From Parafrankia elaeagni (lineage in GTDB: Bacteria; Actinomycetota; Actinomycetes; Frankiales; Frankiaceae): 38,849 nt of DNA. This document shows, piece after piece, positions 1 through 38,849 of this stretch. The position numbers and the translations under genes are program-made. The stretch's first letter is position 1. Every line of letters begins with the position of its first letter. The notes under the pieces are model-generated. The model had not been told where the DNA came from. It ran no database searches and saw nothing but the letters and a program-made list of their open reading frames with translations. Location of the stretch: assembly GCF_000374165.1 (NCBI RefSeq), contig NZ_KB893753.1, forward strand, positions 1 to 38,849, read 5' to 3'.

Positions 1-3000
1 GGTGAGGGCGGCGCCCATCCCCGCCTCCCACAGGCCCCAGCCGATGGCGGTCGCTGGCACGCCGCTGCCGCGCAGATGGGCGGCGTAGGCGTCGACAAAG
101 GTGTTCGCCGCCGCGTAGTTCGCCTGCCCCGCGTTACCGAACAGGCCGGCGACCGACGAGAACAGGACGAACGCCTGGACGCCGCGGTCGCGCGTGACAG
201 CGTGCAGGTTGACCGCCGCGTCCACCTTCGACCGCAGCACACCGTCCAACCGCTCCGGCGTCAACGACGTGAACACACCGTCATCGGCCAGCACCCGCTC
301 CAGAGCACCCCGATCAGCCACATCACAGGCGACCAGACGCACCGTCGCACCCGCCGCGGTCAGCTCAGCCACCAACGTGTCCGCACCCGGCGCCGCCGAG
401 CCCCGCCGGCTGAGCAACACCAGATCCCGCACCCCGTGCACGGCGACCAGATGCCGCACCAGGACCGCGCCCAACGTCCCCGTCGCCCCCGTCACCACCA
501 CCGTCCCAGCACCGAAATCCACACCGCTGGTCTCCCGCCCAGCCGTCACCCGGACCAGCCTCGGCACCAGCACGGACCCGTCCCGGACCGCCGCCTGCCC
601 CACCCCCGACGCCACCACCACCGGCAACACCACACGATCAGCGGCCCCACCCACATCCACCAGCACAATCCGACCCGGATGCTCCGCCTGCGCCGAACGC
701 ACCAACCCCCACAACGCAGCGGCCTCCACGCCCGGCACTCCATCGCCCGGCAGTCCGGCATCCGGCGTCACCGCGACGGCTCCGGCGGTCACCACCACCA
801 GCCGGCTCTGCGCCCATCCCGGGTCGGACAACCACGTCTGCAGGACCTCGAGGAGTTCAGCCGCACGTCGGCGTACCAGCACCGGATCGAGCTGTACCCA
901 CGTCTGCGCGGTGCCCGCGTCCACCGGGAGCGGGGCGGCGACCCGGGTGCAGTCGACGACAAGCACCTCGGCCGGCTCGGGCAGCGGCTCCCCCAGCTGC
1001 ACCGTCCGCCAGGCCAGGTCGACGCCGTCGAGAACGGCACCGTCGGGGACGGCGCTGCCGGAGTCGAGGCCGGCTGGGACGAGGCCGGCGACCGGTCGCC
1101 ACCGCGGCAGGAACAGAAGCCGGTCGGCAAGACCGCGGCCGTCGGCGAGCTGGTCGGCGGACATCGGGCGCAGGGCGAGGGACTCGACGGCTGCCACCGG
1201 GAGGCCGTCCCCGTCCGCGAGCGTGAGCCGGACGGAGACCTGCGGGGACGACGGGCTCGTCGCCGGGGCGGCCGCCGGGGCGGCCGCGTTGCGGGCAAGC
1301 CGGACGCGCACCGTCAGGCCGGCGAGGCCGTGGACGTGGACGCCCGAGAAGGCGAACGGCAGCGGGACGCCTTCGGTGTCGGGCAGCAGCCCGCCGAGGG
1401 CGATCGCGTGCAGCGCGGCGTCGAACACCGCCGGGTGCAACACGTAGCCGTCGGTGGTCTCGGCGCCGGTGACCTCGGCGAACAGATCCTCACCGCGCCG
1501 CCAGGCCCGGACGAGGCCGCGGAACGCGGGACCGTAGCCCAGCCCGGCGTCCGCGAGCGCCTCGTAGAGGTGGGCGGTGTCGATCTCGTCCGCACCGGTC
1601 GGGGGCCACACTGTTAGGTCCGGATCGGGGTCGGGCACGCCGATCTCGGGCCGCAGGGCACCGGTCGCGTGCACGGTCCAGGTGGTTCCGGCCTCGTCCG
1701 GCCGCGCCGAGTCGACGCTCACGGTGCGCCGGCCGTCCTCCTCGGCGGCGGCCACCAGGACGCGCAGCCGGACGCCACCGTTCGCCGGCAGGACCAGCGG
1801 GGCCCGCAGGAGTAGCTCGTCGACGGACATTCCACCGACCCGCTCACCGGCGGCGAGCACCAGCTCGACCAGCGCGGTGCCCGGGACGACCGTCGCGCCG
1901 TGCACGGCGTGGTCGGCGAGCCACGGATGCGCCTGGACGGAGCACCGGCCGGTGAAGACCATGCCACCGTCGGGCAGCGGTACGGCGGCGCCGAGCAGTG
2001 GGTGACCGGTCTCGTCGAGGCCGACAGCCTGGAGATCGGTGCCGTCCGGGGCCGACTCGAGCCAGAACCGGCGGTGCTGGAAGGCGTAGGTCGGCAGGTC
2101 GACGTGCCGGGCACCGCTGCCCTCGAACACCCTCGCCCAGTCCACCCGGGCCCCGGTCACGAACAGCTCCGCCACCGCGCCCAGCAACGTGGCGGCCTCC
2201 TCCCGACCACGACGCAACGTCGACACCGCCAGCACAGCCCCCGGCTCAGGCAGCACATCACCAACCATCGGCGTCAGCACCGCATCCGGGCCGACCTCCA
2301 GAAACCGAGTCACACCCAGCTCTGCCATGGTCTGGACGGCGTCAGCGAAACGCACCGGCCGACGTACCTGGGCCACCCAGTACCCCGGATCCGACCACTC
2401 ACCCACCCCGACCGCGGCACCGGACACCGTCGAGACCGCCGGCAGGGCCGGCTCGGAGAACGTCAGACCACGCACCACCGTTTCGAACTCGGCCAGCATC
2501 GGCTCCATCAACACCGAATGAAACGCATGACTCACCGACAACCGCCGACTCCGCCACCCATGCTCCTCGGCGAGGACCGCCACCTGGTCCAACACGGCAT
2601 GCGGACCGGAAACGACAAGAGCCGACGGCCCGTTGACCGCCGCCACATCCACGACCAGACCCCGCGCCGACAGCCCGGCAAGTACCTCCACCTCACCGGC
2701 GGCGAGAGCGAGCATTCCTCCGCCGGCCGGCAACCCCTGCATCAACCGGCCCCGCGCCGCCACCAACACCGCCGCATCCGCCAGGCTCAACACCCCCGCC
2801 GCGTACGCCGCCGACACCTCACCAATCGAATGCCCCGCCACCACCTCAGCCCGCACCCCCCAGTCCCGCACCAGCGCCAGCAACGCCACCTCCACCGCGA
2901 ACAACGCCGGCTGCGCATAACCGGTCCCCTCCAACACCTCCGGATCGCCCTCAACCACCTCCCGCACCGAACAATCCAGAAGCGGATCCAACAGGCGTAC

Positions 3001-3012
3001 GCCGCCGACACC
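1..3012 (-). CDS. Downstream part of the disrupted PKS (AT-DH-KR), truncated by the left window edge
   Basis: The same frame as the upstream part continues after the TGA and stays open to the left edge. It repeats the AT middle ([12 protein letters not shown], then GHSIGE with His codon 2832-2830) and completes the AT, including HAFH near 2525 (malonyl). [15 protein letters not shown] with HxxxGxxxxP intact (His codon 1911-1909) and [10 protein letters not shown] (Asp codon 1422-1420). KR: glycines near 510, Ser, and catalytic Tyr (codon 117-115, QANYAAAN) are present, but RVLA is followed directly by DDGVFTSLT. Compared with the other KRs here, about 14 residues carrying VVHAAGVL are missing (junction near 282), so the KR is probably dead. 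A TTG at 2991 is the first plausible start, without an obvious ribosome site. AT and KR use G-ending codons, DH C-ending codons. The ACP would lie off the left edge. Confidence 0.72.
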
Positions 3013-3249
3013 TCACCAATCGAATGCCCCGCCACCACCTCCGCCCGAACCCCCCACCGCGTACGCCGCCGACACCTCACCAATCGAATGCCCCGCCACC
3101 ACCTCCGCCCGAACCCCCCAATGCCGCAGCAACCCGAGCAGCGCCACCTCCACCGCGAACAACGCCGGCTGCGCACACCCGGTCCCCTCCAACACCTCCG
3201 GATCGCCCTCAACCACCTCCCGCACCGAACAACCCACAAGCGGATCGAG
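2801..3249 (-). repeat. Triplicated AT-core segment containing an in-frame stop
   Basis: Three copies of the AT core follow each other: 3059-3249 (in frame, GHSIGE His at 3090), a 64-bp partial copy at 2995-3058 (out of frame, matching the first 62 bp of the previous copy exactly), and 2801-2994 (in frame again, His at 2832). Offsets between His codons are 64 and 194 bp, 258 in total, a multiple of three. The TGA at 3013-3015 arises because the short middle copy is read in the wrong frame. The two long copies differ at roughly 15 of 190 positions, so they are not a fresh exact duplication. Confidence 0.85.
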
Positions 3250-5297
3250 AACCGCGCACACCTCGTCGAACGCCGCCGCAAACACCGGAAACGCCCCGTA
3301 CAACCCCCGACCCATACCAACCCGCTGCGCACCCTGACCGGTGAACACCAGCCCCAACCGACCCTCGACGGCCACACCGCGCCTGCACGCGACGCCATCG
3401 GCCCCGTCGGACAGGTCAGACAGATCGGAAAAGGCCGAAAGGGAGGCAAGGGAGGCCGGCAGGGCCGAGGGGGCGGTGGTCAGCAGTACCGCCCGGTGCT
3501 CGAGAACAGGTCTGCGGGCGAGCGACCGGCCGACGTCCGCGAGGAGGAGCCCCTCGGACGACAGTGCTGTTCCCAGCCGCTCGGCCTGCGCGACGAGCGC
3601 CGCGTCGGTGCGCGCGGTCAGCACGATCGGAACGACCGGCAGCTTTGCCGCCGTCGGGCCGTCCTGCGCCGAGACCGTGTCCTGCGCCGAGCCTGGGTCG
3701 TCCTGCGCCGTGGCTGTGTCCGCCGCCGGGGTGGCGGGGGCCTCCTCGAGGATGACGTGGGCGTTGGTGCCGCTGATCCCGAACGACGACACCCCCGCCC
3801 GCCGGGGACGTCCGTCCTGCACCGGCCAGGGACGGGACTCGGTCAGGAGCCGCACCGCGCCCGCCGACCAGTCGACCTGGGGCGAGGGCGCGTCCACGTG
3901 CAGGGTCTGCGGCAGCAGGCCGTGCCGCATCGCCATGACCATCTTGATGACGCCCGCGACACCGGCCGCCGCCTGGGTGTGGCCGATGTTCGACTTGACC
4001 GATCCCAGCCACAGCGGGCGGTCGTCCGGCCGGTCCCGCCCGTACGTGGCCAGCAGGGCCTGGGCCTCGATCGGGTCGCCCAGCCGGGTGCCGGTGCCGT
4101 GGGCCTCGAGTGCGTCGACCTGCGCGGTGGAGAGGCGGGCGCCGGCCAGCGCCTGGCGGATGACCCGCTGCTGGGACGGACCGTTGGGGGCGGTGAGCCC
4201 ACTGCTCGCGCCGTCCTGGTTGACGGCGCTTCCCCGGATCACCGCGAGGACGGGATGCCCGTGGCGGTGGGCGTCGGAGAGCTTCTCCAGCAGGAGCATG
4301 CCGACGCCCTCGCCCCACCCGGTGCCGTCGGCGCCCGCGGCGAACGACTTGCAGCGGCCGTCGGCGGCCAGGCCGCCCTGCCGGCTGAACTCGATGAAGG
4401 TGCCGGGCGTCGCCATCACCGTCACGCCACCGGCGAGCGCCAGGTCGCACTCGCCGAGCCGCAGTGCCTGGGCCGCCAGGTGCATGGCGACCAGGGAGGA
4501 CGAACACGCCGTGTCGATGGTGACGGCCGGGCCCTCGAGGCCGAAGGTGTAGGCGATCCGGCCCGAGGCGACGCTCCCGGAGTTGCCGTTGCCGAGGTAG
4601 GCGGCGACCCCTTCGGGCAGCTCCAGCTGCCGGGAACCGTAGTCGTGGTACATGACGCCGGCGAAGACTCCGGTGCGGCTCTCCCGCATGCCGAGCGGGT
4701 CGAGGCCGGCCCGTTCGAAGGCCTCCCAGGAGGTCTCCAGCAGCAGCCGCTGCTGCGGGTCCATCGCGAGGGCCTCACGCGGGCTGATACCGAAGAGCCC
4801 GGAGTCGAAGCCCGCGGCGTCGTGGAGGAAGCCGCCGGCCAGGTGGGCGCCGGTGTCGAGCCGACCGGTCTCGTGGTCGTAGAGGCCGCCGACGTCCCAG
4901 CCGCGGTCGTCGGGGAAGCCGGCGATCGCGTCCCGCCCCTCGGCGACCAGCCGCCACAGGTCCTCCGGGGTGCTCACGCCCCCGGGGTAGCGGCAGCTCA
5001 TCGCCACGACGGCGATCGGCTCCCGGTCGCGTTCCGTCAGCTCGTGCAGACGCTGCCGGGCGGTGCGCAGGTCGGCCGTGGCCCGCTTGAGGTACGCGAG
5101 GTACTTCTCCTCGTTCGTGGACCCGTGCTGGTTCAGGGACCCACGGTCGTTCATGGCCTCTTGCTGGTTCGTGGCCTCTTGCTGGTTCATGGCCTGTTGC
5201 CCGTTCCTGTCCCGGCCGGCTGGCACGCTGGCTCTCGCTTCGCTCGTAGGGACGGGTCCCTTCCCGCCGGTCACCGCGCTCTCCCCGTTCCCGTCGC

Positions 5298-5301: not shown

Positions 5302-20948
<15,647 letters not shown>

Positions 20949-34529: not shown

Positions 34530-38849
<4,320 letters not shown>

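Follow-up and report, generated by a model that had tools for sequence, protein, structure and literature searches.

A scrambled triplication of the AT start in a modular polyketide synthase gene of Parafrankia elaeagni, very probably created by an assembly join

Introduction

According to one review (PMC5484115), repeats in biosynthetic clusters cause fragmentation and misassembly, and a rearrangement in the bryostatin cluster turned out to be a misassembly.

Here, we analysed a stretch of 38,849 nt (hereafter the window) from the draft genome of Parafrankia elaeagni, in which a modular polyketide synthase (PKS) gene is interrupted by an in-frame TGA within a scrambled triplication of its AT start. 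In its KS-AT-DH-KR order, its GHSIGE and HAFH motifs and its N-terminal docking segment, the gene is like a type I modular PKS with a malonyl-type AT (PF00698), from which it differs by carrying the AT start twice, together with a 64-nt unit and an internal stop. The closest parallels to the lesion itself are two Streptomyces loci, in which, as in the window, part of a PKS domain appears once before and once after a join, in one of them likewise at the AT start. However, those joins are marked by 25 or 10 N and their copies are exact or nearly so, whereas the window has no N, its two long copies differ at 17 of the 194 sites, and a 64-nt unit stands between them. A further relative, encoded on contig 95 of the same genome (from position 876), is a single AT that is closely similar to both the front and the back part of the window AT, yet aligns without any duplication. 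The lesion is very probably an assembly artefact.

Materials and methods

The draft genome comprises 135 contigs (7,589,313 bases, contamination estimate 5.46%). The window (positions 1–38849) makes up most of contig 84 (39,044 nt), the remaining 195 bases of which hold 10 N. Domains were matched to Pfam, the two pieces of the interrupted gene being searched apart; the repeated copies were delimited by repeat search and alignment, and the stop codon and open frames by the letters, the ORF list and the translation. Local duplications were scanned for as exact 30-mers repeated 20–700 nt apart. As comparators, we used 79 named PKS loci (733,290 nt), representing the best 80 of 552 relatives at 50–58% protein identity; these loci are not fully independent, as some share a record, and records of the same genome were possibly excluded from them.

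Results

The gene lies on the minus strand, from about 5304 to base 1, and is the last of the modular type I PKS genes in the window. It encodes a docking segment followed by KS, AT, DH and KR in one frame, which is broken solely by the TGA, and in this respect matches a type I modular PKS module. In the direction of the gene, its features are as follows:

5032..5118, minus strand: N-terminal docking segment (Pfam PF08990, E 2.9e-9)
3895..5022, minus strand: ketosynthase, upstream of the duplication and in the same frame (Pfam PF00109 and PF02801; residues 95–470 of the frame from 5304)
3059..3252, minus strand: copy C of the AT start, with GLLRHWGV (repeat search and alignment)
2995..3058, minus strand: unit B, 64 nt, out of the AT frame, 62 nt of it identical to copy C (repeat search and alignment)
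3013..3015, minus strand: in-frame TGA inside unit B (letters, ORF list and translation)
2793..2994, minus strand: copy A of the AT start, with ALVRDWGV, running on into the rest of the AT (repeat search and alignment)
2146..2792, minus strand: remainder of the AT, open, with VSHAFHS (translation and Pfam)
1147..2004, minus strand: dehydratase region, open (Pfam PF21089 and PF14765)
25..288, minus strand: ketoreductase, C-terminal part (coordinates of the best-scoring stretch), close to the end of the contig (Pfam PF08659)

Given the docking segment, the module probably opens a new protein. At its other end, window base 1 is also base 1 of contig 84, and the contig terminates at the KR. We take the GHSIGE and HAFH motifs of the AT to denote a malonyl-type substrate.

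The AT is not intact: PF00698 is matched in two pieces, covering profile positions 3–102 before the stop and 37–318 after it, so that positions 37–102 are present twice. The repeat search returned two copies of 196 nt that are 93% identical at a spacing of 258 nt, together with a 62-nt repeat present three times at spacings of 194 and 64 nt, which gives the order copy C (3252–3059), unit B (3058–2995), copy A (2994–2793) and the rest of the AT. The TGA reads TCA on the plus strand, and one ORF ends at 3013; past the stop, the sequence is back in the frame of the KS-AT part upstream, since 258 = 86 × 3, and remains open to base 1. Thus, a preliminary description of the stretch had correctly reported three GHSIGE-containing copies, the middle one of 64 bp being out of frame and giving the TGA at 3013–3015, as well as a total offset of 258 bp that restores the frame and leaves AT-DH-KR open to the window edge. 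It had placed the lesion at 2801..3249, which is the right site, the homologous blocks themselves being slightly longer.

One reading of this arrangement is a functional split, in which translation stops at the TGA and starts anew at TTG 2991, yielding a module of two chains, or in which the stop is read through. The ORF list does contain a second ORF, running from TTG 2991 to the contig end. However, such a start would lie inside the AT fold and leave the AT start duplicated on both chains, and unit B, when read in frame, is a run of glycines followed by the stop. In addition, nothing similar was seen in the other seven ATs that a search for the GHSxGE motif located in the window, each of which is open over the approximately 140 residues examined. 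We regard a functional split as extremely improbable.

Copies A and C differ at 17 of the 194 sites, and both code for sensible AT residues. Since a fresh local duplication would start identical, this number of differences argues against one; only unit B resembles a fresh copy, and of copy C alone. Judged by their letters, A and C are different AT sequences and not noisy versions of one. The residue differences noted earlier (GLLRHWG against ALVRDWG, TGCAQ against TGYAQ) are accurate, and the two copies also differ at further residues.

The AT on contig 95, which also encodes sensible AT residues, allows the two copies to be told apart. On the side of copy C, window positions 3051–3380 are 94% identical to contig 95:876–1205 (330 nt), while the back block (2994–2061) is 84% identical to this contig over 938 nt. 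Between offsets 74 and 146, copy C agrees with the contig 95 AT at all 11 of the 11 sites at which A and C differ, and at other sites, e.g. offsets 119, 126, 143 and 144, A and C agree with each other against contig 95. The earlier suggestion that the copies derive from two different ATs is therefore supported by their 17 differences, by copy C siding with contig 95 and by the sensible residues in both. Contig 95 itself was considered as the source of either copy and rejected, as it differs from C at 16 and from A at 22 of the 194 sites. At window position 3380, identity to contig 95 jumps from a dissimilar linker to 86–98% over the AT start, as though exchange or homogenisation between modules had affected the AT.

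Neither the rest of a C-type AT nor the front of an A-type AT was found among the own-genome matches scored (40 of 168 candidates), in a comparison that covered the first 20 kb or less of large contigs and left out 25 masked contigs (1,058–2,745 nt each, 43,475 nt in all). These matches also include contig 68. Contig 6, which carries two ATs, was considered as a source of the half that a split AT would lack and was rejected, its ATs being only about 70–75% identical to this gene. When six other genomes of the genus were searched for an orthologous stretch, the best-scoring match reached 74% over about 1 kb, with shorter conserved pieces of up to 92%, and is therefore too distant for counting modules.

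These comparisons bear on the hidden module that the preliminary description had suggested: the join may skip at least one real module, in which case the true protein would have two ATs, and the front KS-AT start and the back AT-DH-KR would come from different modules. This would be a special case of an artefact and not a rival to it, and we rate it as a possibility that falls somewhat short of an even chance. It is consistent with A and C being clearly different AT sequences, with the absence of matching AT halves among the own-genome matches found, and with the existence of near-identical modules in the same genome (contig 6 and window positions 37473–38774, 88%). However, it needs missing sequence that was left unassembled, was missed, or resides in the 25 wholly masked contigs, contig 6 not being the missing piece, and the same picture would arise from one genuine AT if paralogue reads had been drawn in at the end of one piece.

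The join carries neither a visible gap (N run) nor an ambiguous base: no N occurs in the window, the duplication site included, where the contig sequence is continuous, and N are confined to the contig tail and to sister contigs. Both ends of contig 84 fall inside PKS domains. At its far end, the 10 N lie scattered inside such a domain (positions 351–449 of the stretch L014, corresponding to contig 84 38850–38948), the window stopping one base earlier. Contig 95 holds six scattered N, one of which (960) falls inside the AT block in question. Contig 6 holds 16 N. Its sequence forms one open frame, in which 11 of these N occupy third codon positions, as would be expected if reads of paralogous modules had been pooled. 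It contains two AT-bearing stretches with 88% identity to each other, and it resembles the far end of contig 84 (window positions 37473–38813) at 86–88%, conditions that allow the pooling of reads from paralogous modules. Thirteen N, most of them in third codon positions, cluster in a ketosynthase region of this contig (L011, 4038–4221), and this cluster is a sign of such pooling. Together, contigs 84, 95 and 6 hold 32 N in 72,129 nt, compared with 14 in 35 unmasked stretches from other contigs (447,053 nt) and none in five other PKS-bearing stretches (52,778 nt); this comparison is descriptive and uneven, the three contigs having been chosen after their N were seen.

At the junction between copy C and unit B, normal AT sequence is followed up to GTACGCGG, after which it jumps to the TGGGGGG of copy C. 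The two parents have no base in common exactly at this break (five G are common if one mismatch is allowed). This detail is relevant to the reading in which the deposited order is genuine, a paralogous AT start having been inserted non-homologously alongside a 64-nt tandem duplication; the stop would then end the protein within the AT and kill the assembly line from there on. We consider such a lesion unlikely. Its other wording, a very recent double illegitimate recombination that placed a paralogous AT start before this AT and left a snapshot of failed AT shuffling, appears equally doubtful to us. The deposited sequence does read exactly so, in a continuous and N-free contig; AT paralogues close enough for recombination exist (94% over 330 nt on contig 95), and copies from unequal ATs would also fit real ectopic recombination. 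However, homologous recombination between ATs is expected to leave one clean in-frame hybrid and not two starts set end to end, and two separate illegitimate events (C–B and B–A) would be required, the former without a shared base at the break. Moreover, there is no decay beyond the lesion, the KS, the rest of the AT, the DH and the KR all being open and matched by Pfam. Searched with up to two mismatches, the C–B and B–A junctions are absent from 35 other genomes of the family, which belong to other species and thus say little about a strain-specific lesion.

Among nine PKS sources of the same genome (the window, L009–L013 and L015–L017), the 30-mer scan found such a duplication in the window only, indicating that it is not due to chance; the sole other hit, in L016, was a tandem array of 24 nt. 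Of the 79 named PKS loci, two gave hits in the same scan (limit 700 nt), in both cases across N runs. In Streptomyces sp. AcH 505 (L104, scaffold00001, 10134–10460), 25 N at an AT start are flanked on each side by the same 151 nt, and the frame is broken there. In Streptomyces sp. AC512_CC834 (L122, NODE_148, 7524–7768), near-identical stretches with a longest exact match of 47 nt flank 10 N in a KR, and the frame breaks at the second N run of this locus and not at the duplication. We take both duplications for contig ends that were written out twice across a gap in the scaffold. In total, the 79 loci contain four N runs of two or more, and the other two lack a flanking repeat. That both comparable cases sit at N runs further weakens the case for a real lesion in the window.

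Local repeats were also found in four of the 35 unmasked non-PKS stretches of the same genome (L132, L144, L148 and L177). The one on contig 80 (L144) measures 75 nt and lies in two similar copies of a domain, presumably fibronectin type III, within one open frame; we considered it as a second artefact and rejected this, as it looks natural. A local repeat alone is therefore no sign of an artefact. The remaining three are short local repeats (L148 3051–3249, L132 5633–5707 and L177 37–130, with periods of 126/252/504, 34 and 36 nt, respectively). Among the 30 loci of the genus search, local repeats occurred in the window itself (L018) and in another genome of the genus, where they have short periods of 36/54 nt (L037, 1697–1745).

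Discussion

Two explanations had initially been offered for the interrupted AT, a natural inactivating rearrangement and a join error between near-identical modules. Our analysis favours the latter, while for the former we found no positive evidence beyond the deposited sequence. In the window, duplicated homologous ends meet at one point, within a repeat common to paralogues, and the geometry is that of the two Streptomyces loci, with a 64-nt piece standing where those have N. We prefer an assembly join because it needs only features that are visible in the draft, namely pieces whose ends lie in paralogous domains and a closure that is imperfect.

In such a scenario, one assembled piece would have ended inside an AT start (copy C) and another would have begun inside a homologous AT start (copy A). 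Because these ends are about 9% different, they would have been left unmerged and set end to end, and unit B, 64 nt repeating the tail of copy C, would have been used to close the join. The excess of 258 nt would be a multiple of three by luck, a chance of one in three, which makes the frame look restored, and the TGA would be a by-product of the out-of-frame unit B. It seems probable that this N-free join shares its cause with the N-marked joins of the two Streptomyces loci, and that the true gene has an intact AT domain or domains. What speaks against an artefact is the N-free sequence at the site, in contrast to the two Streptomyces loci.

If left unmarked, an artefact of this kind would make a gene caller split the PKS into two truncated genes and would lead pathway prediction to terminate the assembly line at this point or to count its modules wrongly. 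A search inside PKS domains for exact 30-mers that recur within 700 nt may serve as a cheap flag for such joins. If the lesion were real, the protein would stop inside the AT, downstream of the KS, and would presumably be inactive, and the locus would be a rare record of a failed AT exchange between modules. If, as we think, the deposited order is false, the locus would encode an ordinary KS-AT-DH-KR module with a malonyl-type AT, and the stop codon would have no biological role.
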